Origin: Chaetoderma sp. LZ-2023a
Lineage: Eukaryota; Mollusca; Caudofoveata; Chaetodermatida; Chaetodermatidae
Reading direction: 5' to 3'
DNA: 64,000 nucleotides
Assembly (NCBI GenBank): GCA_034401795.1
Contig: CM067359.1
Span: 145,830,233-145,894,232, forward strand
This document shows, piece by piece, positions 7,932 to 53,563 of the stretch (its first letter is position 1; each line of letters starts with the position of its first letter). The notes beneath the pieces are model-generated. The model was not told the DNA's origin, made no database searches, and saw only the letters and a program-made list of their open reading frames with translations. A program made the translations under genes and the position numbers.

Positions 7932-9535
7932 CAGTTTGGGAGATTTTTAGACATTCGAAATGGGCCAAAATCTAAGATGGCCACCGACTGAATTGAACAA
8001 CCACGGATCTCTATGCCCTAGGGATGCTTTCTGCCCAATGTACTTGAAATTGGCCAGGTGGCTCTCGAGAAGACATTTGAAATTTCCCATTGCTTTAGTA
8101 TGGGAGCGTTGGGCGGGCCGGAAAATGATCCAAGATGGCCACCATACCGTATATCGTACGGTTTCAAAAATCTGAAATCAGACTACCCCAAAACCTATTA
8201 TATAAAACCAATTTCGGCTTCAAAATCCATCAAATAAAAATATCCAATCTCTATGCCCTAAGGATTGTTCCTTCCAAATATACTTGAAACCGGCACAGTG
8301 TTTCTCGATAAGGAGACAATAAAAATTGTCCATTGTATGGGAATGTTTGGCGGGAAAAAGAGCCAAGCCGGACACCAAAGCGTTCATCCGACAGTTTCGA
8401 AAATGGCTTACTTTAATGGCCCTTAGACCCTAATCATATCTCCAAAATTTTGGCCTGATCCATTTAGCGGTTTTGTAGAAGTTGTTTTCGCGAAAACTAG
8501 GCCATCCAAGATGGCTGCCAAAGTATTTGGCCAATCAACTTCCCTTGAACAAACTTGGTTCAGCTCTTGCCCTAGATGAATTAATCTGCCAAGCGGTTTC
8601 GGAGATTTTAAAGACATTTCTAAAAATTCGCCAAAATCCAAGATAGCTGCCGGCCAAATTGGCCGATCGGCTTCGTTCGAACAAACATGGATCGCTATGC
8701 CGTAAGGATCCTTCCTGCCAAATATAAATGAAATCAGCCCAGTGGTTCTTGAGAAGACATTTGAAATTTCCCATTGCTTTAGTATGGGAGCTTTGGGCGG
8801 GCCAGAAAATGATCCAAGATGGCCGCCATACCGTATATCCTACAGTTTCAAAAATTTGAAATCAGACTACCCCAAAACCTATTATATAAAACCAATTTCG
8901 GCTTCAAAATCCATCAAATAAAAATATACAATCTTTATGCCCTAAGGATTGTTCCTTCCAAATATACTTGAAACCGGCACAGTGTTTCTCGATAAGGAGA
9001 CAATAAAAATTGTCCATTGTATGGGAATGTTTGGCGGGAAAAAGAGCCAAGCTGAACACCAAAGCGTTCATCTGACAGTTTCGAAAATGGCTTACTTTAA
9101 TGGCCCTTAGACCCTAATCATATCTCCAAAATTTTGGCCTGATCCATTTAGCGGTTTTGTAGAAGTTGTTTTTGCGAAAACTAGGTCATCCAAGATGGCC
9201 GCCAAAGTATTTGGCCAATCAACTTCCCTTGAACAAACTTGGTTCAGCTCTTGCCTTAGATTAGATGAATTAATCTTCCAAGCGGTTTCGGAGAAGATTT
9301 TAAAGACATTTCTAAAAATTGGCCAAAATCCAAGATAGCAGCCGGCCAAATTGGCTGATCGGCTTCGTTCGAACAAACTTGGATCACTATGCCGTAAGGA
9401 TTCTTCCTGCCAAATATAATTGAAATCAGCCCAGTGGTTCTTGAGAAGAAGTTGTTAAAAGAAAAAGTTGACGGACAGACAGACGCCGGATGCCACAGCA
9501 TAAGCTCACTTGGCCAATCTGGCCAGGCGAACTAC
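7932..9535. repeat. 'aagatggc' repeat, tandem duplication with 684-bp period
   Basis: Positions near 8088 and 8772 ('cattgctttagtatggga') and near 8400 and 9084 ('aaaatggcttactttaatgg') align at the same 684-base offset, so roughly one and a half to two units lie in tandem. The block ends with 'gacggacagacagacgcc' and 'agcataagctcacttggcc', a 3' terminus style seen on many marine invertebrate repeats. Open frames within it are repeat artefacts. Confidence 0.8.
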
Positions 9536-9797
9536 AAATAATTCCATACCTACGGTACCTGAATTTTTGGAGGCGTGTAATAGGAAAGATTTATATTACT
9601 TTGTTTGGCCGTACGGTATATAAGGACCAGTGTATTAACATGACATTTTGCTAGTGCATACCATTGTACAGAACAGCTCAGAAATAATGTAACACATTTC
9701 AAATTTTTTATGGAGTTATGTCCCCTTTCGACTTATGAAATACAAACATATAGGCTTTCAAGAATTTTTCGTTCGCCTTCACTATATAACTAAAACT
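9536..9797. other. Non-coding flank of the DIRS element
   Basis: No frame or repeat recognised. It ends immediately before the left terminus of the DIRS element. Confidence 0.4.
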
Positions 9798-9834
9798 GCA
9801 GGAAATTTCAATTTCCCTTTCTCCGAGATCTAAC

Positions 9835-9989
9835 AATACTCACCATTCTGTTACTTTCGGATACACAGCTGGCCTTGACAGCTGGCTCTAGGACTATAGA
9901 CTTAGAAAGCTTTACCGACTCCTTGGAACCGGGTAGTCGGCTCCCAACCGCCAAGTACCCGTCTACCATAGAGCTCATATTGTTTGCAT
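9835..9989. repeat. DIRS terminal inverted repeat, 3' copy
   Basis: Runs from 'aatactcaccattctg' to the region of 'tttgcatagc' and is the inverted counterpart of 16689-16843, with a few substitutions. Outside it, 9798-9834 is the 3'-specific end that pairs with the internal complementary region. Confidence 0.88.
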
Positions 9990-10046
9990 AGCCACCAAAC
10001 AAGAGAAAACCATGGCTTGCCTCCGTGGGGCTGGGAGGCTGGGTCC

Positions 10047-10141
10047 GTAACAGAATGGTGAGTATTGTTAGATCTCGGAGAAAGGGAAATTGAAATTTCC
10101 TGCATTCTCTTTCGATCAATACTCACCATTCTGTTACTTTC
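10047..10141. repeat. DIRS internal complementary region (ICR)
   Basis: 10047-10103 is a perfect 57-base reverse complement of 9798-9854. 10104-10140 carries the sequence complementary to 16821-16857. The junction 10103/10104 therefore records how the two element ends abut in a circular intermediate and fixes the element ends at 9798 and 16857. In known DIRS elements the ICR templates completion of the termini. Confidence 0.88.
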
Positions 10142-10644
10142 CGATATACACCAGATTTGTTCAGTAACCTGGTGGGAAGGGGCAAGCCATAAATGCTACT
10201 TTGCCCCTTGGAGAAAGATTTTAGACTTAACAACTTGACTAACGGAGACCTAAAAGGACCGTCAAGTTATCGAAACCGAATCACATTCGCGTCACTGCCC
10301 CCCCCCCTCCTTTTTTCTCCTAAGAAAAGACAGAACTCACGAACATGTATCTCGCCTGAAACACAAATATGCCGAGGGTTAACTGCTCCTTGCATATCCA
10401 CATGTATTAGGGAATGAGCATGAATATATATGATGAATGAACATGATATATAGACATAATACAAACTCTCACTAATGAATTACCTTATGATAACTGGACT
10501 TCAGACGTACCGCCTCCAACCATTCACTGGTCTGGCCATCAGTGACACAATCTGGTTGTCATCCTTACGCTCGATCATGCCTGCTTTAGGTTCTTTTCTA
10601 ACCGAAGTGAAAAAAGGGTGAAGAGCAGTGTGGCCACTTAACTA
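10142..10644. other. DIRS spacer between ICR and recombinase
   Basis: Contains a C-run near 10300 and no credible frame. It is probably the 3' untranslated part of the DIRS transcript. Confidence 0.5.
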
Positions 10645-11694
10645 TCATCTCAAAACAGCTAAAGCGAGTGGATTGGCTGAGTCTGACACATCCCTCATAT
10701 AGTAATCCGTAAATGAGGACTCACAGTGCCATTGTGCAACGGCCATGATGTCCTCTAACGGAACACCACTGTAAAGGGCGGTCGAGGCGGCTATTCCTCG
10801 AACATTGTGTGCCCTTATGCCTTGCACCTGGTGCCCAGTCGCCATCTCATGAGTAGTCTGAATGCATTCGACTATCCAACGAGAGATAGTATCCATGGAT
10901 GCGGCACCATAAGGCTTCTTATGACAGATCCATAGATGTCTATCATTCGACCGTAACGAGTCAGTCAGTTTCTTGTACTTAGTCAAAGCACGGACCGGGC
11001 ACCAGACACTGGCATCACGATCAAACCCAGTTAACTTCGGTATTATGATCGGTTCGCCGGGATATCTCAAAGATTGATTCTCTGACATAAACTCTGCTCT
11101 TGGCAGAAGACGCAGACCCTCTCCAGAGACAATAAATCAGTATCTCTCTGCCGAAAGCGCATGGATCTCACTGCGCCTTCTAGCTGAGGAAGCTGCCAAT
11201 AGAAAAACCGCCTTTAGAGTCAAATGCTTTAGACTCGCCGAACGCAACGGTTCGAAAGGATGCTTGGCCAGTAAATTAAGCACTAAAGATAGACTCCAGG
11301 CTGGAATGACTACCGGTTGTCTCGGTCGGAGATTGCTCATTCCCTTCACCATCACATTTAACTGGGCCACCTCTGGACTATCCCTGTTGTCTAGACAAGG
11401 GATAACTGATGCCAAAGCTGACTTGTATCCAGCAATTGTGACGGGAGCTAGTCCTGAAAAGAACAGCTCACAGAGAACGTCTGCTATTTGCTGAATAGTG
11501 GATTGAAAGGTATCAATACCCTTTTCTTCACACCAGTCTGCAAATCTGTTAACCTTGTTGTTATATGACTTGAAGGTTGACCTCCTTCTCGCAGCCACGA
11601 TGAAATCAGCAGCTTGTCGAGAAAAGCCTTCCGACGTGGAACGTTGTTTGATAACATCCACGCAGTCAATTTGAACATTTCGGGACGCTCGTGT
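10645..11694 (-). pseudogene. DIRS tyrosine recombinase (YR), one in-frame stop
   Basis: The enzyme integrates the circular DNA copy of a DIRS element. The N-terminal core-binding part reads 'RRRSTFKSYNNKVNRFADWC', followed by 'AGYKSALASVIPCL'. The catalytic part begins with the conserved Arg in 'ARRRSEIHAL'. A TGA at 11137-11139 interrupts the frame just after it. The same frame then continues through 'RAHNVRGIAAS' (the H-x-x-R pair), 'VAQWHCESSFTDYYMRD' (Trp and the probable nucleophilic Tyr) and a natural stop at 10645. All catalytic residues are thus visible apart from the nonsense codon. The frame overlaps the 3' end of the RT frame, as in other DIRS elements. The exact start is uncertain. 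Confidence 0.9.
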
Positions 11695-13638
11695 AGGAAG
11701 CGTCCCTTGGCCTGGAAGATTATGTTCGGAATCTCGGGCAACTGCACTGGGTTTTCCACCAGCAGATCTAGCAGATCCGTGAACCACGCCCTGCTTGGCC
11801 AATACGGCGCTATTAGCAGGACCAGACACGGTTCCTCCCTGATCTTCACCAATACCTTCGGCAGAAGGATGGTGGGTGGGTACGCGTAAGCGTGCATCCC
11901 CCTCCAGCTTATCGCCAGAGCATCTGTATCGACGGCATTTGGATCTGGAATCGGCGAGACATAAGTCATGATTTGAGCATTTTCCTTTGTGGCGAACAAG
12001 TCCACGTTGGGTTTGCCCCAATGCTCGAAGATCCTTCGTAGAACTGGAGGGTTGAGGGACCATTCTGTCGGCAGAATTCTCTGTCTGCGAGACAAAGCAT
12101 CCGCCAGAATGTTCAATCGGCCAGGAATGTGAGCTGCTTTCAAAACAACCGAGTAATTCCTGCACCATTGAATCAAGTGCCACACTTTGATACAAAGTGT
12201 GGGTGACCTGGTCCCGCCGTGGCGATTTATGTATGATACTACCGTCGAATTGTCCGACCGTATCAATATCACCTTGCCCCTGATCATCGGAAGAAACTCT
12301 TCCAACGCCAGCTCCACTGCCATCATTTCCAACAGATTGATATGCAGCTGACTCTCCAGGAGAGTCCATGTGCCCGAGACCTGGTGTTCTCCCAGGCAGG
12401 CACCCCACCCTTCCAGCGATGCATCCGTGTACACGGACAGCTGGGGGCGAGGTAGGTGCAGCGAAACCCCTACTAGGAGATTCTGACGCTGTTTCCACCA
12501 TAGCAGATGCGATATTATCGGCTCCAAAACTGGCACCAGTTTTGACAGGGGTTCTGTTCTCTGTTTCCACAGAGACATCAGATACAACTGGATAGGTCTT
12601 CTCATTAGAGCAGCGAACGGGATCACCTGCTCCATGGAGACCATCATACCCAGCATCTGAAGAAACCGCCTCGCCTGAATGTGGTTTCCCACTCGAAAAC
12701 TCTCGAGGATGGCTAACAGAGACACCACTCTGGGTTCTGACGGGTAAACCCTGCCCTCCTCGAGATCGAATCGCATCCCCAAATAAACGAAATGTTGAGT
12801 GGGTGTCAACTCGGATTTCTCCTTGTTGACTATCCAGCCTAGATCTGAAAGTAACTTCAGAGTCAGAGCAGTATCCACGTTCAACCTGGCTGCCGAGTCT
12901 GCCTTGAGCAGCCAGTCGTCTATGTAGGTGTGTAGCGCCACGTTCTCTTTTCTGAAAAACGCTGTCACCGCAAGGACCACTCTTGTGAAAACCCTCGGAG
13001 CTGTCGACAGGCCAAACGGGAGAACAGTAAACTCCCATACTTGAATCTGAAACGCAAATCTCAGAAACCTGTGCCAACTCTGGTTCATGGGAATGTGGAA
13101 ATCGATCGATCGACACACACTACATTCCCTTCCTCAATCCCGTCATTACCGATCTCGGCGTTTCCATCTGGAACCGAGGCGTATGGATAAACCAATTTAA
13201 TGGCCTGAGATTGAGTAAGGGTCTCCATCCCCCCGTGCTCTCGGGGACAAGGAACATGTTTGAATAGAAGCCTGGAGTGTTCCGGTTTGCTGGTTTTATT
13301 GCTCCCTTCAGAAGCAAACCCGACACTTCCTTTTGCACGGCTTCTAACTTGTCTGGCTCCCTTGGTACGGGTGTCCAGACAGGTGCCAAAGACAGATTTT
13401 GTGGCGGAAAGTCCCACCACTCCGGCATGTAACCCTGGGATAACCATCCCAGGACCAGACTGTCTGACATCACACCTCGCCAGGCCTCGACGAAACGCAT
13501 GAGCCTTCCACCCACCATAGACGCCTCGACGTCTAATGGGGTTGTCCGGCTCGCGGTCCGCTCACCCCCCCCCCCCCCTCTCTTAACGAGAGAGAGAGAG
13601 AACCATTTCGGTCTCGGCACGGCGGGTATAACTGGCAC
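11484..13638 (-). pseudogene. DIRS reverse transcriptase / RNase H / methyltransferase-like polyprotein, frameshifted
   Basis: This polyprotein copies the element's RNA into DNA. Fingers-domain sequence lies in 13120-13638 ('GFYSNMFLVPESTGGWRPLL'). At about 13100-13125 the motif A region is damaged: a TAG and a short deletion remove the normal residues after 'SID', and the frame changes. The second segment (11484-13118, 544 codons) has 'LPFGLSTAPRVFT', the active-site motif 'YIDDWLL' (about residues 65-71) and an RNase H domain with Asp232, Glu264, Asp289 and Asp340 ('YTDAS', 'LLEMMAVELAL', 'RSDNS', 'ADALSRR'). After it, 'VDLFATKEN' and 'AYAYPPTILLPKVL' correspond to the methyltransferase-like region of DIRS1-group elements; that domain name is from family knowledge and its activity is unproven. 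Confidence 0.9.
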
Positions 13639-13695
13639 CGCTGTTCCTGTCGCACAGGTGCGGTCCAGGCGGATATGAAGGGAGCTCTCGCACCC

Positions 13696-15723
13696 TCAGG
13701 TATGATCCGCTCCCTTCTGTCCGCCCTTGGAGGGCTTACCCTTACCCTTCCCGCCTCTAGGGCGGTCAGGAGCAACCTTGGGGAGGGTAGGAGCCTCTAC
13801 AACCTTCCTGGCTTTCTTAGCCGGCGGCGGTTGAGAAAATCCAGCTGAAGCCGAAGTCGCAGCAGGCTTAGCTTTCGCCTTGCCCTTATGCTTCTTCTGC
13901 TTCTTTGGAGGTTGTCCAGCTAGCGGTTTCCCCACAGCCCCTAGTGCGTGCGCTTGCCGCACTAGCTCCAGCTGTAGGTTGACCGCCAACCGATTCTGCG
14001 CGATGCTGGCCGTATCCTCTAGGATGGCCCGCGCTTGGCCACCGAAGATGCTAGGCCCTGTCAGGAGTGTCCCAAGAAGACGCTCCCTGACTGCCGTAGC
14101 CGGACGCATATGGTCAATAACCATTTGCCTCCTGGATTTGGTCACACGTGCCTGCACCCTTGCCAGTGCGTCCATAGACAGCGCCAAGCTGTCATTTATG
14201 CACGAAAGTGCCACAAGTGGCACAGGGTGGCCTGCCCCCGCTTCAGCCCACACCGACTGAAGGAGACGATAAGAGTGGTTGACAGCACTCATAGCTGCCC
14301 TCACACCCTCATCGCACAGGGACAGGACTTCCTCTTGGTGTACCTGGGACCTGTCCACAAGTGCCGGACCGGGGCCACCCGCTCCAGCACTCTGAACCCC
14401 CAGGACCCATCGGTCATCCTCAGTGACCGACCGACGGCACTACACCATATCTGTCGTATTCCCCCCGCGGAATACGACACCTTGCCCGCACCTCCCTGGA
14501 GGCGCAGGGAGCTGGCCCGTGGTCTATAAATAGCATCCAACAACTCTATGAACCGTGGATCCAGTCCCACTGACTGGATCCGGGCCGCGGGCAAGATCCC
14601 CGTCCGAATCGATGCAACCGACGGGGCGCATCCTCCTCGGCCGTGGCCGAAACCACAGACGGGTCCACCCTGGCGAGCCAAGCTAGAGCCTCGGACAAGT
14701 ATATTTCCGAGGAGGAAACACCCGCAAACACGTCACCCGTTGACGCACTCACGGGCCTGCCAGCCACGGCCTCCCGGCAAGGAGCCGTGGCTGACACACC
14801 AGGCACTCCGGTACCACCCGGTTCCGCCGCCACCCCATGAACCATACCAGTCCATGGGATAGGTCCGCCCGTAAAACCGTACGGACCCGTAGCGGACGCG
14901 GAACCGTGGCCAAACACGGGCACCAACGACACCCCATGTCCGACCGCCGGACCGGGCGAGATAGGTGAGTACCACGCCCGGCCCGGCACACCGGTCACCG
15001 TGCCAAACCAACCGACACGGAACCGGTGCCCGGTACCAGATTGGCCTCAACCACAGATGGAGCCGCTGCCCTGGCTTGCGCCAAGCCAGACAGATGGAGG
15101 GCGGTTCCGTCCAGGACGGAATCGACCTCCATATGCTCCACCTGTGGCATCACAGGCCACAGCAATAACTCCTCCTCGTCTTCAGACTCCGAAGAGTCGT
15201 CACCAGACGAGGAAACCGCGGAGCCGTCCTGGTGGACAGCTCCCACACCTGACGGACCGGCCACCGCTACTGGACCACCCGGAGGTGGCCGCAGAGAGAC
15301 AGAACCCACCAGGCCGGAGCCAGACGGGACTGCCAGGGGGCCGTACGAGACAGCCCCCTCGGTAACCAGTCCAGAACCCTGTCCAAGGACAGGGTCCATA
15401 CCAGGCATGGGGAGAAACTGCCCCCCAACCTTCGGTAGCAGTGACGACACCAGCGTGGGCAGAACGCTATGCAGAAAACCCTGCATAGCCGGACCGAACC
15501 ACGCCGGCGGTGCCATCTCCACCACCTCCAGCTGGGGACATGGAGCGCCCCCACAGGCCGCTCCACGATTTAACCTCGGACCACCTGACCCCGCGTCAGA
15601 CCCAGCCACATCCTTCTGGCCAAGGAACTTTACCATCATATCGACGGACCACACTGCGCACACATTACATCTATGATCAAGGTTACAGGGCGTACACCTA
15701 AAACAGACATGGACCTTAAACAC
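13696..15723 (-). pseudogene. DIRS gag-like region, several broken frames
   Basis: By position 5' of the RT this should encode the nucleocapsid-like protein. The best-preserved piece is 13696-14358 (220 codons): a helical N-terminal part with 'GPSIFGGQARAILEDTA', then a basic Lys/Pro-rich tail ('KKQKKHKGKAKAKPAA', 'PRGGKGKGKPSKGGQKG') suited to nucleic-acid binding. Upstream pieces at 14301-14681, 14546-14998 and 14995-15723 lie in different frames. The first has a Cys/His cluster ('CFRCTPCNLDHRCNVC') near its start. Long plus-strand frames over the same GC-rich stretch are shadows. The number of frameshifts cannot be settled without a related intact copy. Confidence 0.65.
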
Positions 15724-16688
15724 GACGCGTACAAACTTATGGCACTCGTCACATGATGGCGGGGCTGGCTTGGCCTATAAAATAAGCACAAACCTACAAT
15801 AAGCAAGCGGAACGAGACACAGATGGAAGGCAGACAATTAATTTTCAAATAAATTGACCATAAATTAACTGTAACCCTCCCGCACCCCACCCCGCAATGT
15901 TACAGCAAAGATCGCATTGATTATGACGACAAGAACGAAGCGGGCATAAATACACCCATAATTGATCCTCCAGGATGTATCACGGCTCCAGGAATCATAT
16001 CGCATAGCATTCGGGGTATATTTACCAATCAAATAAATTATACTCCTAACGAAAGCCGACACGATATGTGAAGAAACAACAAAATGTAAACAAACTGCTG
16101 TAGCACACGGTAAAACCGCAGACCACGCATCTCTCAAGAATTTTGACACCACTGATCATTGAAAACCGATCGTGATCACACGTAAACTTGACCATTCCAA
16201 AGTTTTCTAGTAGCATTTTTAGTACGCAGCACCCAGAACAAGATGCGCGAATTAATGAAAAATTTTCTTCACATAAACATCCGAGCATCACGGGTGTGAC
16301 GTCACCCGCTCGGACCTTACGGAAAACGACGTCAGCCGATATTCGTGTTAGAAATACCGTAGCAAACACCTATTTTCATATCTGCCGATCGCCTGTTGGG
16401 GTTTAAAGAAGGCGATCGTCTGGCATATCTCGTTGTTAGCACACGTCCCAGATTCTATGGGGTCAGAAATTGGAACATGCGACACAACGAAATTTAGAGA
16501 CCTAAGTCTTTTAACTATGGATAATAAGGAATTATACAACCTGGTCATCATTGGCAGTATTCTCCATTTTATTCAGTTAGATCCTTTTAAGAACGCACAA
16601 CTATCAATTCACAGATAAGACTTAGATTTCCTTTCACAAAAACTTAAAATCTTTCCTGCAAAAAAACCGTGGACAGCTCTTGTTGCTA
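15724..16688. other. DIRS 5' leader
   Basis: Lies between the gag-like region and the 5' inverted repeat. No credible frame. It contains 'gtgacgtcacccgctcgg' near 16297, with a CRE-like TGACGTCA; a promoter role is a guess. Confidence 0.45.
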
Positions 16689-16843
16689 TGCAAACAAGAA
16701 TGAGCTCTATGGTAGACGGGTACTCGGCGGTTGGGAGCCGAGTACCTGGTTCCAAGGAGTCGGTAAAGCTTTCTAAGTCTATAGTCCTAGAGCCAGCTGT
16801 CAAAGCCAGCTGTGTATCCGAAAGTAACAGAATGGTGAGTATT
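16689..16843. repeat. DIRS terminal inverted repeat, 5' copy
   Basis: Inverted counterpart of 9835-9989, including 'gctctatggtagacgggtac' and 'ctaagtctatagtcctag'. The element continues to 16857 ('gatcgaaggagaat'), where it matches the right half of the ICR. Confidence 0.88.
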
Positions 16844-16869
16844 GATCGAAGGAGAATTGGTATATTGCT

Positions 16870-17390
16870 TTGTGTTGAAAGCTAATATTTTTCGTAAGTC
16901 AAAATTGTGGGGGGGGGGGGGCATAACTCCATCAAAAATGGACGAAAATGTCTGAAACTCAAATATTTCTATAAAGCCTTATACTAGATCGATGTACTGA
17001 TTTCCCCTTAGACATCTTGAAGGTGTGCGGAAAAAAGTGTGGAAAGCTGATATTTTTCATATTCCATATGTCGAAAGATTGACAAAAATGTCTTAAACTC
17101 GAGCTTGCTCTGTAACTCCTTAACTAAGGCGATGTACCGATTTTCCCGTAAAACTGATATTTTTTGTATTTTGTAAGTCTAAAGGGGGCATAACACCAGC
17201 AAAGATTGACGCATACACCTGAAACTCGAACTTGGTCTGTAACTTCTCATACCAAAGCAATGTACCAATCCGTTGTTGAATACCTTGAAGGACTGCGAAA
17301 AAAAAGGTGTGGAAAACAAACTGCGCCAGACGGACAGACAGAGTGCAAACCTAGTCCCCCAAGTTTTACCGGTAGGGGACTAATAAAATG
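16870..17390. repeat. Diverged dispersed repeat, about three internal units
   Basis: Three diverged statements of a unit with 'aagctgatatttttc', 'aaactcgaacttg(g/c)tctgtaa' and 'gatgtaccgat' occur near 16880, 17040 and 17150. The block ends with 'cggacagacagagtgcaaac' and 'taggggactaataa', a terminus style common in molluscan repeats. Non-coding. Confidence 0.6.
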
Positions 17391-17699
17391 TACTGTTGAG
17401 TATTTTGGACTTAATTTGATTGGAAACCAGTGCTTCCTATTAAGGCAAGTAGTATATCCAGGATTAAAATGTTACCACCTCCAATCAGCGATTCGTGGCT
17501 CAGTTCTCTAAATGGATTCTCGAGACCGTAGAATATCAAGCATATTGCATATAAGACTTTATGTACATAAAGAATTGGCTCAACCATAATTGACTTCACA
17601 TACATAAAGAATTGGCAAAATGTTACCACCTCCTCTGTCAGCCTCCATTCAGCGATTCACGGCTGTTCTCTAAATGGGCTATGACGTGGGAGGAAGGGC
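17391..17699. other. Non-coding; short duplicated motifs
   Basis: The string 'aatgttaccacctcc' occurs near 17467 and 17617, and 'cagcgattc(g/a)(t/c)ggct' near 17485 and 17652, so a diverged duplication with a period of roughly 150-165 bases is present. No gene seen. Confidence 0.45.

Positions 17700-29833: not shown

Positions 29834-29909
<76 letters not shown>
29738..29909. repeat. Compound (CA)n-(TA)n microsatellite
   Basis: About 80 bases of CA repeats followed by about 70 bases of TA repeats, ending at the TA that flanks the Tc1-like transposon. The TA run resumes at 31491-31569, so the transposon split it. Frames across it are artefacts. Confidence 0.95.
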
Positions 29910-29912
<3 letters not shown>

Positions 29913-31487
29913 CTGTGCAAAAGTTAAGCACCACCCTATTTTTACGCACATGCGAGGGTATATTCATGTGCTATGAAGAAAGCAATAGCATAAACATTTA
30001 TGTACCCATCCATCTTAGTGCAAGAGGTAATAATGCAACTAGAGGAATGCTGATTATGATGGTGGGGAAACACTTTTTTGTTTGAACTTGAAAACGAGGC
30101 CTGAATATGGTTACGTTGACACAACTGACAACTATTGCCCTACAGTTGACACACGTGGCTAGATTGTCATTAATGGTGTCTGAAAACGAAGTTTAACATC
30201 TGTGCACGAGTTTGAGACTGTCATTATTAATACCGGGTATATCCACCTTGTGCCTAGATGACGGCCTGGACACGACGTCTCATGCTGGTCACCAACCGAC
30301 TGATACGCCATTGTGGTATTCGTTGCCATTCAAGATGGAGTGCGTCTGTTAATTCCTGTAGGTTCTGCACAGGAGGATCCCTCCTTCTCACCATGTTTCC
30401 CAGAATGTCCCAGATATGCTCAATAGGGTTCATGTCAGGGCTCCTTGCTGGCCATGGTAGGGTTTCGATGGCATTCTGGTGGAGGTATTCATGCACAGCT
30501 CTAGCACGATGTGGTCGGGCGTTGTCATCCATGAATATAGGGTGGGTTCCAGGTGCATGATTTACAAAATGAGGGACCACAACTCTATCCAGTATGGAAT
30601 CTTGATATCTTTGTCCATTTAGTGTTCCAGGTACAGTCAACAGATCCAGCTTACAATCAAATGAGATGCACCCCCATATCATAATGGAACCTCCACCAAA
30701 TGGAACTTCTTCCATGATGTTACGTTGGTCGTACGCCGTGCGTCTGGACCTCCATACACGAGTTCGACCATCTGTGGCATGAAGCAGGAACCGACTTTCA
30801 TCGGACCAGTGTACCCGTCTCCAGGATCTCATGTTCTAGTGTCTTCTTTCGTTGCACCACCTCATACAGTCTCCTTTTGACGGTAGACATTGACACTCTA
30901 TTGCGCGTTTCCCATTGCTGGCTGAGCACTCTGCTGTTGGTGAATGGAGATCTCCTAACAAGGTGTACTAGGGCTCGATCATCACGGGCAGTAGTCTTCT
31001 TCGGTCTTCCAGATGTAGGCCTGTCATTCACCTCGTTAGTTTGCCCATGTTTTGCAATCAAACGACTGATTACAGTATGGTTAATGTTCAGCTGTCTGCC
31101 AATCTCTCTGCATGACATACCAGTGGTATGCATGCCTATGATTTGCCATTTCACACGATCACTTAACCTTCGTCTTGCCATAGCGGTTCACAATCAAGAG
31201 CTAATTCTCTCTGTACAAATAAACCACGGTCATGAACACAAAATTCCTAATCTTGTCGCCTAAATCTGTATGTAATGTTCTACACCTCAAACTGGACTTT
31301 TACATAACTGAACACGTGTGCTGTTTCCCGCCACGCACGGACATCAAGCGGCGTGAAGTCATGCATGCATGTGCATTTCGTACTTGGAATTATGTCAGCT
31401 AACGCGGGGACAAAACGTATGGCAGCCTAGTTGTACCATCATGTTTCTACGTTCTATTGTTTTTGCTGGTGCTTAACTTTTGCACAG

Positions 31488-31490
<3 letters not shown>
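29910..31490 (-). mobile_element. Tc1-like (DD34E) DNA transposon, copy 1
   Basis: 1,581 bp, bounded by a 24-base perfect terminal inverted repeat (left end 'cacctgtgcaaaagttaagc', right end its complement at 31467-31490) and flanked by TA on both sides, the canonical Tc1/mariner target. It carries one transposase gene on the minus strand. It is very similar over its whole length to copy 2 (35277-36932), apart from a 71-base deletion and small differences. It sits inside an (AT)n run just downstream of LINE-A. Confidence 0.95.
30254..31181 (-). pseudogene. Tc1-like transposase, copy 1 (71-nt deletion)
   Basis: Cut-and-paste transposase. The N-terminal part (30798-31181) begins 'MARRRLSDRVKWQIIG' and holds paired helix-turn-helix DNA-binding sequence ('MSCREIGRQLNINHTVISRL', 'GRPKKTTARDD'). 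The catalytic part (30254-30832) has 'VHWSDESRF' (first Asp), 'IFMDDNARPHRA' (second Asp) and 'SPDMNPIEHIWD' (Glu). There are 34 residues between the second Asp and the Glu, i.e. DD34E. Compared with copy 2, 71 bases are missing between 'cacctca' and 'tacagtctcc' (near 30865), shifting the frame. A TAG at 30254-30256 replaces the CAG of copy 2 and removes the last ten residues. Confidence 0.93.

Positions 31491-31569
<79 letters not shown>
31491..31569. repeat. (TA)n continuation of split microsatellite
   Basis: Pure TA repeat immediately right of the Tc1-like transposon, the other half of the run at 29838-29909. Confidence 0.95.
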
Positions 31570-35057: not shown

Positions 35058-35270
35058 GCACCACCAATTACGCCATCATCATCATCACCATTGGCATGAT
35101 CATTATCATTGCCATGATCGTCATCATTATCATGATCATCATCATAATCATCATTGTCATGATCGTCATCATTGCCACGATTGTCACCATTGTCATGATC
35201 ATTGTCATTATCGTGATCGTCATCATCGTCATAGTTGTCATGATCGTCATCATCGTCGTTGTCTTCATCA
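34734..35270. repeat. Trinucleotide microsatellite cluster (ATT, CTT/ATT, CAC/CCA, CAT, CAG)
   Basis: A patchwork of triplet repeats: (ATT)n at about 34734-34830, mixed 'attctt' to 34870, CAC/CCG-type triplets near 34895-34990, (CAT)n and (CAG)n near 34995-35060, and degenerate CAT/CGT triplets to 35270. Because the unit length is three, the minus-strand LINE-A ORF2 frame stays open throughout. Confidence 0.9.
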
Positions 35271-35276
35271 TATATA

Positions 35277-36932
35277 CACCTGTGCAAAAGTTAAGCACCA
35301 CCCTATTTTTACGCACATGCGAGGGTATATTCATGTGCTATGAAGAAAGCAATAGCATAAACATTTATGTACCCATCCATCTTAGTGCAAGAGGTAATAA
35401 TGCAACTAGAGGAATGCTGATTATGATGGTGGGGAAACACTGTATGTTTTTGTTTGAACTTGAAAACGAGGCCTGAATATGGTTACGTTGACACAACTGA
35501 CAACTATTGCCCTACAGTTGACACACGTGGCTAGATTGCCATTAATGGTGTCTGAAAACGAAGTTTAACATCTGTGCACGAGTTTGAGACTGTCATTATT
35601 AATACCGGGTATATCCACCTTGTGCCTGGATGACGGCCTGGACACGACGTCTCATGCTGGTCACCAACCGACTGATACGCCATTGTGGTATTCGTTGCCA
35701 TTCAAGATGGAGTGCGTCTGTTAATTCCTGTAGGTTCTGCACAGGAGGATCCCTCCTTCTCACCATGTTTCCCAGAATGTCCCAGATATGCTCAATAGGG
35801 TTCATGTCAGGGCTCCTTGCTGGCCATGGTAGGGTTTCGATGGCATTCTGGCGGAGGTATTCATGCACAGCTCTAGCACGATGTGGTCGGGCGTTGTCAT
35901 CCATGAATATAGGGTGGGTTCCAGGTGCATGATTTACAAAATGAGGGACCACAACTCTATCCAGTATGGAATCTTGATATCTTTGTCCATTTAGTGTTCC
36001 AGGTACAGTCAACAGATCCAGCTTACAATCAAATGAGATGCACCCCCATATCATAACGGAACCTCCACCAAATGGAACTTCTTCCATGATGTTACGTTGG
36101 TCGTACGCCGTGCGTCTGGACCTCCATACACGAGTTCGACCATCTGTGGCATGAAGCAGGAACCGACTTTCATCGGACCAGTGTACCAGTCTCAGGATCT
36201 CATGTTCCAGTGTCTTCTTTCGTTGCACCACCTCAGACGCTCCTCTTTGTGGTGTGCAGTGAGGAGAGGACGTCTGACAGGTCTCCTAGCTTTCATGCCA
36301 GCAGCATACAGTCTCCTTTTGACGGTAGACATTGACACTCTATTGCGCGTTTCCCATTGCTGGCTGAGCACTCTGCTGTTGGTGAATGGAGATCTCCTAA
36401 CAAGGCGTACTAGGGCTCGATCATCACGGGCAGTAGTCTTCTTCGGTCTTCCAGATCTAGGCCTGTCCTTCACCTCGTTAGTTTGCCCATGTTTTGCAAT
36501 CAAACGACTGATTACAGTATGGTTAATGTTCAGCTGTCTGCCAATCTCTCTGCATGACATACCAGTGGTATGCATGCCTATGATTTGCCATTTCACACGA
36601 TCACTTAACCTTCATCTTGCCATAGCGGTTCACAATCAAGAGCTAATTCTCTCTGTACAAATAAACCACGGTCATGAACACAAAATTCCAAATCTTGTCG
36701 CCTAAATCTGTATGTAATGTTCTACACCTCAAACTGAACTTTTACATAACTGAACACGTGTGCTGTTTCCCGCCACGCACGGACATCAAGCGGCGTGAAG
36801 TCATGCATGCATGTGCATTTCGTACTTGGAATTATGTCAGCTAACGCGGGGACAAAAAGTATGGCAGCCTAGTTGTACCATCATGTTTCTACGTTCTATT
36901 GTTTTTGCTGGTGCTTAACTTTTGCACAGGTG
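35277..36932 (-). mobile_element. Tc1-like (DD34E) DNA transposon, copy 2
   Basis: 1,656 bp with the same 24-base terminal inverted repeats as copy 1 and TA at both flanks (35275-35276, 36933-36934). It lies within LINE-A ORF2, so it arrived after LINE-A. It lacks the 71-base deletion of copy 1. Both copies point the same way and flank the 3' two thirds of LINE-A. Confidence 0.95.
35599..36626 (-). pseudogene. Tc1-like transposase, copy 2 (early TGA and 1-nt deletion)
   Basis: Same family as copy 1 and almost complete in length. After the start 'MAR' (near 36624) the next codon is TGA where copy 1 has CGA, a CpG-to-TpG type change. The DNA-binding part continues in 36192-36596, including 'MKARRPVRRPLLTAHHKEER', the segment copy 1 has lost. 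Near 36195 one base is missing relative to copy 1 ('tcctgagac' against 'tcctggagac'), shifting the frame. The catalytic part (35599-36231) has 'VHWSDESRF', 'IFMDDNARPHRA' and 'SPDMNPIEHIWD' and ends naturally with 'QAQGGYTRY'. Confidence 0.93.
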
Positions 36933-37226
36933 TATAGTATATTATTAGCGCGTATGCCGCATTTTGGCAAGCTACCACTATTACTCGTATTGTTACTGAG
37001 TAGTTGGTATCCATTACTGAGCAACAGATTAGAATAATTAAGATACTCAATACAATGTTTGGACTCATCACTACATACCATAGATACTGAATTGACATCA
37101 CGTTTACTCGAGGAGCTTACTGCGGGAAGACCAGACAGTTTTACATTCATATCAATGCCATTAGTCATAGTCCCGTTAGTAACTGCATCCAAACTGTTCA
37201 AACACTTAGTTTTGCTTATATTGTAT

Positions 37227-39764: not shown

Positions 39765-42700
39765 CTAATGGGTTAACAGAGTTCCAACAGATGATGTGTT
39801 TATAAGTGATGAGTGTTTTAAGTGTAGACTGAAGCAGAGTTCTCTTGATAATTTTTCGAATGTTTCTGGATTGATGTCTGATAGCTTGCTAGCATCTAGA
39901 ATAGCCTGCATATAGTGCTCACTGTTCATGCTGATGTTGAGTTGCTTTAGTAGTTTTCGTATTTTTATGAGACATGGCTGTCTGACATGCTCTAGCTCTT
40001 GGCAGTCAATGAGGTAGTGCTGCAGATCTTCTCTGTGATGGCTGCATAGCTGACATTTTACTGCTCCTCCTCTGTTCCTGGTTGGGCCTCCGAAAAGATG
40101 ATATCTCTGCATGAGTAGTCTTACTTTCACTGTAGCTTTGTAGACTGAGGTTTTATCTGTCTCGCAGCTTCTCCATGCTATATGTGGTACACCGATCTTA
40201 TAGGTATCCACGTTCAAGTACTGTAGAGTGCTTTTATTTGCAGTGTCGTCCTTTAGTTTGTTTTCCCAGTAGTTGTTTACATTTGACGTGACTGTCTTCT
40301 TCCATGTTGCCTTAGTAGGGGTGTTTGCTAGAAGGGAGTATGCGGAAGGTAGTTCATTCTGCTGAATGATTTTCTTTAGCTTTACAGTCCAGCTATTTGA
40401 TGATGGTAGTTTCACAGCCAGTTGCCTTTCTAGAACCTCTCTTTCAACAGAATTTTGACGATGTAGCATTTGTATGAAGAAGTTTAGTATTCTTTTGTGC
40501 AGCTCTCCCCCAAGTGGTAGCGTTCCTAAGAGTATGTAGACAGCTGTATTTGCAGTTGAAACTGGCAGATGCTGAATTGCTTTCAGTTGTGACTGATAGA
40601 AATTCTCCAGCTTTTCAAGTTCAGTCTGAGTGAGTATAAGTCCCTGAAGACCATGTAGAAGAAAGGGGGGGGGGGTCACATAGATGTCATAGAGCTGTTT
40701 TGAGGTTAATGGGTTCAAACCATTTAATCCATGTAGGCCTGCTCCCATGAGTGAATATGCTGCCTTTCTTGAGGATCCAATCTTAGCCTCTATTGTGCGC
40801 TTGTTACTGGCATCTGATGTTCTAACTACTCCGAGAGGTGTCTCTTCCTTTGTATTACCGAGTTGTTCACCATTGAGTAATAGGGATGCTGCTTTTGTAC
40901 TTCTCATTGTCATGTGTTTTGTTTTAGTACTGCTGAAGAGGTAGAATTCATTAGCTGCGTCTATCTGTGCTTCATTGGTAAGAAGTTGTATTGAAGTTGG
41001 AGTGGTAGCCGTCAGAACAAGATCATCTGCACATATGACAGCACATGTTGAAATATTCCCAATTCTGAATCCAGCTGGATGGTCTTCATATTTTCTTAGT
41101 AATGGATTACTGCGGCTGTTAAGTAGATCAACGGACGATTCACCACCCTGTCTGATTCCTTGTCTCTCAGTGATTGTTTTGGAAATGTTACCACTCCATT
41201 TGACAGCTGATGTTATATCTGAGTACATGTTGTTAACAATTGTCCATAGTTTCTCTGTTATTCCCTGGTTATATATGGTATTAAGTAGTCCTTTGTGATT
41301 AACAATATCAAAGGCTTTGCTGGCATCCATGAATAGGATGTGTTGATCACTTTTTGTATCTTTGGCTTCTGCAATAGTCTCACTCAAAATGAAGGCAGCA
41401 TTTGTAGATGCACAGTTTGCAGTAAATCCCATTTGCAGTTTACTCTTGCTTTGATTCAGATTTAGTCTTATTCTTTTTGTGATTTCCTTTTCAACAACTT
41501 TCCCTAGAAGCGATCCTACAGTTATACGCCTGTATTTATCTGGTGTTAGCATACATATTCCCTTCTTTTGAACTGGTGTAATTAATCCAATCTTCATGGA
41601 TTCTGGTATATTTCCTGTACTTAGGACATCATTAATTACCAGAGTAAGAATTTTAACGATCTCATAGATATACAGTGCATTATATGTTCTGCTGAGATTC
41701 CATGTACATCTGATTCTTTACCAAGGTGTAGCTTTCTAATATGTTTATATGTATCCTCTGGTGTTATGTGAGAAAGTGGATCCGATGTGGAACTAATCAT
41801 GCTCAATAGAAGATGTTTCAGTTCAGTAGATGCAACCATTTCTGAATCAAAGGTAGGACTATCTATTGTAGTTGCTAGCTGCTCAAAGTATTCTGCCCAG
41901 CAGTCTACTTGGGGTTCATTTGAGGATGGATTATCTGTGAAGTTTATGGATGCTTCTTGTGCTGGATTGTCATTCCGAAGTTTTCTGATAACTTTAAACG
42001 TCTTGTTTCTATTATGTAGGTTGTAATTCATGATTTCATTGTGCAGGCTATTCCGGTGTTCAAATTCTAACTGCCTTTGCATACGTCTTATTTCTTTTTT
42101 ATTCTTCTTTCTCTCTATCCATGTTTCACCCTCTCTTGGACGGTCATGATTTTTCCATTTCAAATTAGCACCTTTAGCTCTACTGACACATTGTTTTAGT
42201 TGGCTGTTCCATTTGTAATTTCGTTTCCGAGTGATTTTTCTTAAAGGTGGGCTTAGGTCAGCTGTGGTTTTCTGGAGAATGTCGTTTACCCTCTGAAGCA
42301 GTAACTCTGCTTGTCGGTTGTATCATGCTGTACTGATCATAGACTTCAGCTGCTGTGCAGTCATCTTTCTGTACTTGTGTTTATCAATCTTTTCCCATCT
42401 GATACGCTGTCCGGTTGGCCTATTAGGAAAATTGGAATGCTGCCCAGATTTGCTTATGTTGACATAGACTTCAGCTGTTACCGCATCATGTGTGCTGCCA
42501 TGTATAGGGTTACGAGAGTCTATAGCAATGCTTGTGATGGGACTGTTCTGAGTAGATGGTTCTAGATAGAAGTCAAGCTGTGAAGTTGTATTATTTACAC
42601 AATGATGGTATGTTGGCTCGGCTGGCATCAGTGGTGATACTTGGTAGCCAGATTCTCTACAGAACTGTTTAGCAGGTTATCGTTCTTTGTTGATATATCT

Positions 42701-49961: not shown

Positions 49962-52900
49962 TCACCGCAACTGAGTCATCTTACCTCGCTGTCGATGCAG
50001 GACGTGACAAAGTTCTCTGGATAGTTTTTGGAGTTTCTGTAGTATCCGGGAGCTACAGCTTACAGGATCATCTGCAGCAAACTTGCTAGGGTCTAGGATA
50101 GCTTGAATACAGTTCTCCTGTGTGACTTGGAGTCCTAGTGGCTTCAGCATGCCACAGACCTTACTCAGGAGTTCTTTTCGTGTAGGTTGAAGCTGTGTAC
50201 ACACGACAAGGAAGTGCACCAGTGTCTCATCTTCACCCTTGCACAGTGGACAGGTGGCTGGACCTCGACGGTTATGGGTTGTTCCTCCAAGTAGGTTCTA
50301 TCTCTGTACTAGTAACTTAGCTTGGATAGTAGCCTTATATACAGAGGTCTTACACTGTGTGGTTTTCCGATCTTGCAGGAGTCAAGGGAAAGATACGACA
50401 GAGTCTTCTTCCTGGCAGCTTCTTCTTTCGGTTTACGCTCCCAGTGGTCATGGACCTGTTTTGTCACCATTGTTTTCCATACTCCCTCGCTTGGTAGCTT
50501 CTTCAGAAGACTGTGTGCATCCGGCAGGCCATACTTCTGTAGCATCTGATTTACTATCATTACCCAGCTATAGAATCCAACTGCCTTGATGGCTAATTGT
50601 CTTTCAATTATCTCATGTTCGATGGAATTCTCTCTGTGTAGCATATTCACAAGAAAGATCAGAATCCTTTTGTGAATTTGGTCTTCCACTGGTCGTACTC
50701 CAAGCAGCAAGTAGGCTGCAGCATTCGCACAACTGGTAGGTAGATGCTGCATATGTTTTAGATTGGCCCTGTAGAAATCTTCCAGCTTTTCGATCTCAGA
50801 CTGCTTTAGGATCAGTCCCTCAAGGCTATGCGGTAGGACTGGAGTAGTATATATCTCCCAGATGTGTATTGATGCCATTGGGTTTAGGCCATTAAGTCCA
50901 TACATGCCATCACCCATTATGGAGTAGGCTGCACGCCATGCTGAGTTAATTCTGCTTTCAACTGTTTTTAGTTTGTTACACGAAGATGTTCTAGTAACGC
51001 CAAGATGGGTCTCCTCATTTGTGATCTCCAACAGCTTCCCATTTATCCAGAGATTTGCTGGCTTTGTACCTCTGGCTACCATGGTTTTAGTTTTGGTGCT
51101 ACTAAACAAGTATCGCTCACTAACTGCATCCAGCTGTGCCTCATTTATTAAGGGTTGCATAGCTTCCGGTGCTCGCGCAACTAATGCTAGGTCGTCTGCA
51201 CACATAATTGCACCTGTTGGGATCAAACCAATTCTATACGTAGCTGGGTGGGTTTCCAGTTTATGTAGTAGCTTGTTGCTCCTGCTGTTCAAAAGGTCTG
51301 TTGATGACTCACCACCTTGACGGATCCCCTGTTACTCACCAAAGGGCTGTGACACTTCCCCTTTCCACTTAACGGCTGCTCCCATATCTGTGTACATACT
51401 GTCTACAATAGCCCATAGGGTGCCCCTGATTCCTTAACTGTAGATGGCATTAATCATACTTGGGTGATTTACAATATCAACGGCCTTGCTGGCATCCATA
51501 CATGTTATGTGTTGTGAACTCTTGGTATCAACAGCATCAGCAATGGTTTCAGTAAGAGCAAAAACTGCATTTACGGACGAGCAACTTTGTGTAAAACCGA
51601 ACTGCAATCTACTTTTTGTCTGGTTTAAGGCTGGTCTGATTCGCTGTACACTTTCTTTTTCTACTACCTTTCCCAGGACAGAACTGACTGTAATGTGTCT
51701 GTAGCTATCTGGCCATCTAGCAGACTTTCCTTTCTTCGGGACCGGAGTGAGTAGGCCAGTTTTCATGGTATCTGGGATCTTGCCAGTGGTCAGCACGTCA
51801 TTTGTGATGGTATTGAGGACTGTAAGCACTTCATGTGAGGCGTATTTTAGGTGTTCTGCAGTGCTACCGAATATGTCTGCTGCTTTTCCATTCTTCAGTT
51901 TTAGCACATGCGTTTCAGTTTGTTGGGTATCCACTAAGGATAAAGGTTTCTCTGCAGATGAGTTTAGGCTAATCAGCATGCGTCTAGGCACTAATGACTC
52001 CTTCATCTCACTGTCAAAGGTCTGATCATCAACAGGTGTAGCTAAATTTTCAAAGTACTGGGCCCAGAGCTCTGGCTCTGTGGTGCTGCTCCCCCAAATA
52101 CCGAAGTTAATACAAACATTCTGCACTGGCCTGCTATCTCTTAAGTGTCTTATCGCCTTGAAGAATTTGCTGTGATCTCTTGGATCCATTATGGTTGTGT
52201 GCAGCCTGTTTTGTTTTTCTACCATAAGCTGTCTTTGGGCTGCCTTAAGATCCTTTTTTGCATGTTTCTTCCTATCCGCTGCTTCCCCATCTTTTGAGCA
52301 TCCTTCTTTTTTCCATATCCAGTGTGCAGCCTTTGAACATTCTACAAATGGCTTCAGCATAGCATCCCATTTATAATGTGGTCGGACCCGCTGCTTCTTT
52401 TTGGCCGGACTGGCGTCTACTGCTGCATTATATAGGATTTCATTTATTGCCTGCAGCAGGAACTCTGAAGACAGATTCTGACGGGAGAGGTCTATCAGGT
52501 TTTGCCATCCCGATGAGGTAAGATGCTTGTACTTTTGTATGTCCACCATGTCCCAATTCACACTCTGCTTAACTCGCATTCCTGCTTTTCACTGTGATGG
52601 TACAGATCCATTCAACTGCACAGACAGGGTGGCTGTAACTGCATCGTGCGCACTATGATTTATCGGTTTACGTGAGTCCATATGAATTTCCTTTATAACA
52701 CTGTTCTGATTGGCTAACTCGATGAAAACATCCAGCTGCGATGTATTACCACCATAGAAGTGGTGGTATGTCGGCAACTTTGGCATTAACGGAGACACTC
52801 TGTAGCCCTTTTCCAGACAGAACTGTTTTAGTAGCTTGTCATTTTTGTTCTCACTTACTCTCCCCAACATACCATTTATATCACCCGTCCACAGTAAGGT

Positions 52901-53563
52901 GTAGGCTCCGGAGTACTCCTGTGTTATTTCGGCAACTTCATCTAGTACACTGATGTAGCTAGTAGTTTTGTCGTGAGTACCTTCTGCAGGCATGTGTGTA
53001 TTTATGAGCAGGGGCGGTTCAGGCTCTGCATTGATGCGTATTGCAACTAATCGATTACTACCATCAGGTAGGGGTTCTATACAGTGGCTTAAGGACTGGG
53101 GCCATAAGATAGCCACACCTGCTGTACCTTTCGATCTGTGGCAGGGGAGCATTGGATCTCCATCATCCGAACAATTGGCTACATATGCATGGTTTGGAAA
53201 AGTCTTTGAAATGGAGTCCAACTCATAGTTGAAAAGCCAGTGCTCTTGGACACATGCAATGGTTTGCTTGTCTGATAACAGCTCACTAAGATATGCATGG
53301 TTTGTTCTCGGATTTTCTGTGTTTATCGTAACAATCTTAGGGTTAGATCAGTTGCAGCTGGCTTCCTTCTGCTCATTTTTGGCCTGTTTTATTGTTGTCT
53401 GTACATTGGTGCCAAGCCGCTTTTGTGGTCTGGAGGCTTTTGTGGAACATCCCTTGTCTAAAAAATGATTGTATATATCCTCAGCCATTTCACTCCTAGT
53501 ATAAATTTGCCTTTTGTTACATGGGGGTATCTCAGCAGCGCTTGCAAACTCTATAAGGTCCAT
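49962..53563 (-). pseudogene. LINE-B copy 2 ORF2: endonuclease + RT
   Basis: Most of it is in one frame with stops. N-terminal extension 53348-53563, then a TAA. Endonuclease from about 53340: 'KIVTINTENPRTNHAYLSEL', 'ACVQEHWLFNYEL', 'AGVAILWPQS', 'LINTHMPAEGTHD', 'LLWTGDINGML', 'SQLDVFIE' and 'HSAHDAVTATL' (to a TGA at 52589). Linker and RT fingers/palm are at 51434-52579, including 'SRLQFGFTQSCSSVNAVFAL' and 'CMDASKAVDIVNH'. A TAA at 51434 and another just before 'QGIRQGGESS' (near 51330) follow. RT 50309-51292 has 'MCADDLALVAR' and the thumb. The last piece, 49962-50219, is shifted by one frame. The RT catalytic residues are intact. Confidence 0.87.

Follow-up and report, generated by a model that had tools for sequence, protein, structure and literature searches.

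DIRS elements insert without an integrase and without target duplication, in a way that has been modelled and is called not fully proven in PMC5633606. The 64,000-nucleotide stretch of the Chaetoderma sp. LZ-2023a genome analysed here (the window) carries a DIRS1-like tyrosine-recombinase (YR) retrotransposon of 7,060 bp, and raises the question of how this element was joined to its target. The family is young, has many copies and offers some readable empty sites, so that the question becomes countable: where the cut falls, which of the strands is retained and what features a target needs. Elements of the DIRS1-like kind are already known; the family-level junction pattern bears on the mode of DIRS insertion.

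Termini, internal complementary region and genes

The element lies on the minus strand (Table 1). Its terminal repeats are inverted, not direct, and do not form the split direct repeats of PAT-like elements. No target-site duplication was found: the flanks of the window copy share no word of more than five bases, and unfilled relatives of the insertion sites concur.

Table 1. Features of the element and of its surroundings in window coordinates.
Feature	Coordinates	Strand	Evidence or remark
DIRS1-like retrotransposon	9797-16856	-	5' end 16856, 3' end 9797; copies read at 40 3' ends and at 58 readable 5' ends; unfilled relatives
5' terminus: TT, divergent part and conserved inverted terminal repeat (ITR; 16700-16844)	16700-16856	-	4 mismatches in 145 against 9834-9978
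3' conserved ITR	9834-9978	-	Comparison with 16700-16844
3' right extension and divergent ITR, complementary to the internal complementary region (ICR)	9797-9833	-	Terms after PMC3266345
Right ICR, complement of the 3' end; final base is junction base A (+10104)	10047-10104	-	58/58
Left ICR, complement of the 5' end; first bases are junction TT (+10105-10106)	10105-10150	-	44/47 for 10104-10150; core ATT in 40/40 copies
Junction position 1, 5' side: target base outside the element	16857	-	Free in 58 5' ends (A17 T21 G13 C7); unfilled relatives
Target bases at junction positions 2-3 of the 3' side (GT on the sense strand)	9795-9796	-	3' ends of copies; unfilled relatives
C-terminal piece of YR (HNVR...W...Y), cut off by an in-frame stop from the remainder of the YR frame	10645-11136	-	phrog_1 integrase, E 0.032; motif by eye
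YR frame, open across the pol frame, with YR N-terminal domain near its end	11137-13119	-	Phage_int_SAM_1, E 2.2e-4 on 11137-11634
pol frame: reverse transcriptase (RT; YIDD at 12915-12926), RNase H, weak Dam-like match	11484-13133	-	RVT_1 9.6e-12; RT_RNaseH 3.2e-5; Dam 0.019 and 0.0043
Probable N-terminal part of RT, in a frame differing from that of the remaining RT	13120-13695	-	'POL protein' structure 5ovn, E 0.019; otherwise by eye
Putative gag-like open frame	13696-14439	-	Open frame only
Putative gag-like open frame with Cys-rich stretch	14995-15774	-	Open frame; sub-threshold PHF5, E 0.015
Satellite repeats, unfilled relatives of the target of copy L015/L054	24172-26070		Units of ~150 bp

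The ICR (10047-10150) reads on the plus strand as the 3' end of the element followed by its 5' start. The initial annotation had described 10047-10103 as a 57-base perfect complement of the 3' end and 10104-10140 as matching the complement of the 5' end with one mismatch. The former was borne out and extends by one base (10047-10104 against 9797-9854); the latter likewise holds, with 1 mismatch in 37 bases (against 16821-16857) within the longer match of 10104-10150 to 16811-16857. The 21-mer CAATACTCACCATTCTGTTAC occurs at exactly four sites in the window, one per ITR and one per ICR half; the count stays at four with 3 mismatches allowed, and shuffles averaged 0.00. Because its two halves contain this 21-mer as an inverted pair, the complete ICR has a strong fold (z -8.99); taken by itself, the 3' extension gives a hairpin in the ordinary range (z -1.65). 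The ICR had also been taken to record the circular intermediate. That it is the complement of the joined ends stands; a circle goes one step beyond this, and the bridging of the ends of a linear single-stranded cDNA fits the ICR equally well.

Templating of the ends by the ICR was examined through variants relative to the majority in 40 copies, 27 of them with a 5' end. In no copy did an end and the ICR have a variant in common. Variants confined to ends numbered 9 + 57 and those confined to the ICR 6 + 6; the 57 include a single fixed difference present in 24 copies and the many deviating positions of L022 and L026. These counts are compatible with templating as well as with its absence, and neither prove nor exclude it. 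The window copy (10104-10110) and L011 carry a common ICR variant that their 5' ends lack, a pattern that fits poorly with a simple model in which the ICR templates the ends.

The pol frame encodes RT and RNase H of Ty3/gypsy affinity, as in DIRS1-like elements. Its RT_RNaseH match reaches 24.5 bits, slightly below the cut-off of 24.8, and three RT-containing matches (E <= 3.1e-10) were obtained among solved structures, the best three being an 'Enzymatic polyprotein' and a pair of RT-RNase H entries that includes Ty3. The Dam-like match that follows RNase H is weak (15-17 bits against a cut-off of 28.1). The Phage_int_SAM_1 match of the YR frame (21.9 bits) also lies below its cut-off (22.3). 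The phrog_1 integrase profile aligns colinearly to both YR pieces (E 3.5e-4 for the other piece). Together with the HNVR..W..Y motif, these matches identify a tyrosine recombinase, with no curated cut-off passed by any of them. No Pfam integrase match was found on the C-terminal piece, and its AlphaFold model (pLDDT 36) was unusable. The YR frame stays open over 544 pol-frame codons, the longest run in 1,000 synonymous permutations being 240; the two frames thus form a true long overlap of ORFs. No Pfam match was obtained for 13120-13695, and the gag assignments are putative, made by position with the profiles silent. Rfam returned no matches at gathering thresholds, and no relatives were found in IMG/VR and GTDB.

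The initial annotation called this DIRS element complete. This is correct for the termini. The genes are broken: YR has an in-frame stop, RT is interrupted by a stop and a frame change, and the expected gag region, judged by eye, shows several changes of frame. Its identification as DIRS is supported by the termini with the ICR, RT, RNase H, the N-terminal YR domain and the absence of target duplication, to which the weak Dam-like match and the inverted orientation of the termini may be added. It is very probably one copy, with broken genes, of a young DIRS1-like retrotransposon that is present in high copy number and has a one-point junction. Inverted termini would also be expected of a DNA transposon, or might arise by chance; against this stand an ICR that matches both ends, the RT/RNase H/YR content, the lack of target duplication and a longest perfect inverted match in 9300-17400 of 58 bases, compared with 11-14 in 50 dinucleotide shuffles, so that the probability of such an origin is negligible.

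Copies in the host genome and their junctions

The host genome comprises 2.44 Gb in 2,753 contigs. The search for further copies, which had been suggested with the initial annotation, returned 1,527 first-look candidates for a 343-base 3'-end query; all of the 40 scored, the window copy included, matched along the whole length at 98-100%. A 5'-end query gave 1,553 candidates, of which 40 were scored and all matched at 97-100%. The median pairwise difference among the 40 3' ends was 0.9% in a gap-free comparison. This DIRS family is young and large, with copy figures drawn from 40 scored of 1,527 and 1,553 candidates. Insertions into copies of the same family are common: family-matching flanks were seen in 9 of ~70 sampled insertions (5/39 3' flanks and 7/57 5' flanks), namely L013, L019, L021, L022, L026, L096, L097, L098 and L103, the match of L103 stopping 64 bases before the junction. 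In the eight nested pairs with readable orientation (L022 left out), both elements point the same way.

Junctions were read in defined sets of copies. The 3' set consists of 39 fetched 3' ends and the window copy, picked with a query starting at 9798. The same 40 copies made up the first 5' set, in which 27 were readable (window included), 12 had no 5' end in the fetched stretch and one, L042, was dropped as a false seed match. The second 5' set was selected on internal sequence, which keeps terminal bases from biasing it; it covers 34 of the 39 non-window copies, five having already been read. The 40 5'-end candidates obtained with the query that contains the junction bases were left out of the junction counts.

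Conservation stops at the same 3' base in every one of the 40 copies, window included; conserved boundaries reaching beyond the proposed ends were looked for and not seen, and the ICR core ATT proved identical throughout. On the sense strand, the 3' junction reads CCTGC-A-N-T, with A in 40/40, a variable middle base (T17 A15 G6 C2) and T as third base in 39/40. The 5' junction reads N-T-T-CTCC in the first set, where the first base is T10 A7 G5 C5 and TT is present in 27/27. In the second set, 31 of the 34 copies are readable, with T11 A10 G8 C2 as first base and TT in 31/31. Over both sets, N-TT occurs in 58/58 readable ends with N free, and the first base of the junction is kept in 17/58. 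No 5' terminus could be read in 13/40 copies of the first set and 3/34 of the second, and the class bounds given below exclude these. Two of the three unreadable copies of the second set, L092 and L105, carry at their 5' end the complement of the 3' extension, with a common variant, and their termini look as if recombined; the third lacks the 21-mer.

Empty sites were examined by joining the flanks across the element and comparing them with the sequences in hand, which gave nine insertions with relatives aligned over the junction. At position 1, the relatives carry the base of the filled 5' side for L021 (G, 3/3), L023 (G, 1/1), L029 (T, 3/3), L024 (C), L030 (C) and L045 (T; 1/1 each for the last three). 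For L019, G was found in 26/26 alignments, several of which perhaps represent the same copies; a gap of 11-12 bases lies two to three bases left of the junction in these relatives and weakens the case. L015 is inserted in a variable satellite, where 6 of 10 relatives with a base have A at position 1; at position 2, nine of ten agree on C, a non-T base, and an eleventh relative has a gap. The cleanest empty sites are those of L021 (G|GT, 3/3 alignments) and L023 (G|AT, 1/1), both of which agree at a non-T position 2. Position 2 disagrees for L030 (T in the relative, G in the filled site) and in two of three relatives of L029 (G, filled A), the remaining one agreeing. In L024 and L045 a gap adjoins the junction, and no judgement was possible for L022.

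From L021 and L023 it is evident that the target supplies the base preceding TT on the 5' side and the N-T following A on the 3' side; the empty sites are few and uneven. Reverse-transcribed ends can be ragged in general, and the variation at 5' position 1 and 3' position 2 might accordingly stem from untemplated or error-prone cDNA ends instead of the target. This explanation is largely refuted and very improbable, given that the unfilled relatives of L021 and L023 carry the same bases, that all aligned relatives of L019, L024, L029, L030 and L045 match at position 1, and that position-1 base frequencies match the flanking background (p 0.46). As the unfilled relatives place the flanking junction bases in the target, the element runs from TT to A. 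Its single-base ends had been set at 9798 and 16857; the length of 7,060 bp is right, but each end is off by one (9797 belongs to the element and 16857 to the target), because the ICR junction base A equals the target base at the window insertion.

The joins are therefore target-N | TTCTCC... on the 5' side and ...CCTGCA | N-T-Y-Y-target on the 3' side, with no duplication. In all readable insertions the crossover falls between junction bases 1 and 2, A and the first T of TT; this one-point junction, taken jointly with the identity of the element, is highly likely. The target consensus is RAAW-N5-N|N-T-Y-Y. R-A-A at -9 to -7 is clearly marked (p 4.2e-5, 2.5e-7 and 4.5e-7), W at -6 weakly (p 0.013). 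Targets do not reproduce the whole 3-bp junction: their positions 1 and 2 vary freely, and T occupies position 3 in 38/39 unique sites, followed by a pyrimidine at position 4 in 39/39 and at position 5 in 34/39. Positions 3-5 match the right arm of the element itself (T-C-T).

Strand exchange at the junction

With repeatedly occurring flanks counted once and unreadable ends left out, 56 unique 5' and 39 unique 3' junctions remained, each of which fits a crossover between positions 1 and 2. A staggered two-strand exchange with equal strand outcomes would often leave a target base at 5' position 2. A non-T was found there in 0/56, so that equal classes are rejected (P = 3e-9) and the reciprocal class is below 8.8% at 95%. 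The converse test on the 3' side also rejects equal classes (P = 3e-8), with the reciprocal class below 10.4% at 95%.

The junction pattern favours joining of one strand. We tentatively propose that single-stranded DIRS cDNA is joined at A|TT, strand and cut point thus being recorded in the genome; we rate the chance of this at slightly below even. Within one molecule, the ICR would bring the two ends of a linear single-stranded cDNA next to each other and act as a splint holding both. The element-type YR would perform the joining, connecting only the end-bearing strand to the target between the junction bases A and TT; the exchange of a single strand would most likely be due to a single-stranded cDNA substrate. 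The few bases to the right of the cut (T-Y-Y) might be checked by pairing with the ICR, and the other strand would then be supplied by replication or repair. YR joining, the ICR as splint and the exchange of only the end-bearing strand are inferred, the one-strand step indirectly, and the proposal is testable in any DIRS-rich genome.

Strand-biased repair would look the same. A YR could exchange both strands between a double-stranded circle and the target, if repair or replication invariably resolved the resulting mismatches towards the same strand and a single junction class survived. Such a course is plausible, though less likely than not. It agrees with the published model of a circular intermediate with a 3-bp junction, as outlined in PMC3266345, and with the circular cDNA reported for DIRS-1 in PMC5633606. 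It needs, however, a near-complete strand bias (reciprocal class below ~9-10%), and the 3-bp identity of the published model is unnecessary here, junction positions 1 and 2 being free in the target.

One-strand joining, if this reading is right, would resemble integron cassette recombination, in which a YR acts on a folded single strand (attC) and connects one strand at a single point within a G|TT triplet: both would be single-strand, one-point YR joining. The integron system is bacterial and works without reverse transcription, and no kinship is claimed.

Comparison with known elements and other features of the window

The 28 DIRS1-like elements of Table 3 in PMC3266345 share with the window element the ITRs, the right extension, a two-half ICR meeting at the junction, the ATT/AAT core (the commonest there), RT-RH and the absence of target duplication. 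An overlapping YR frame is common to the window element and half of the elements in that source, and the lengths of divergent ITR, conserved ITR, extension and ICR are within the ranges it gives. The window element is longer than those listed (3,974-6,283 bp) and, unlike them, has broken genes. The first junction base at the 5' end is free in the window family but kept in 25 of the 26 tabulated starts. The free base may be special to this family, or may be hidden by annotation in the published table. A 3-base junction is given for 26 of the 28 elements; in the 26 usable rows, all 8 departures of start or end from it fall at start 1, end 2 or end 3 (0.004 if the six positions were equal), the positions that are target bases in the window family. 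A 'middle-base' idea drawn from the published table alone was superseded by the A|TT reading once both ends had been read.

Dictyostelium DIRS-1, as described in PMC5633606, likewise has an ICR complementary to both ends, overlapping ORFs and insertions into its own copies. It differs in host as well as in core and ITR length (row DIRS1-2 of Table 3, PMC3266345), and the description of no apparent sequence preference for DIRS-1 (PMC5633606) contrasts with the target consensus of the window family. A survey of titles and abstract starts, with key subscription-journal papers outside its scope, revealed no paper on a single-point DIRS junction; we do not claim that it is unpublished, and a 2020 paper cited in PMC9210276 may already propose part of one-strand joining.

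Other repeats were observed elsewhere in the window. Two 98% identical copies of a transposon with a DDE_3 domain are located at 29903-31503 and 35270-36945. RT frames that look alike by eye occupy 39765-41717 and 50309-53347; the first matches RVT_1 at 3.4e-21, and no RT match was found for the pieces 50309-51331 and 52589-53347 of the second. The word GGGCATAACTC is enriched (5 occurrences, 0.8 expected) and presumably recalls mollusc repeats.
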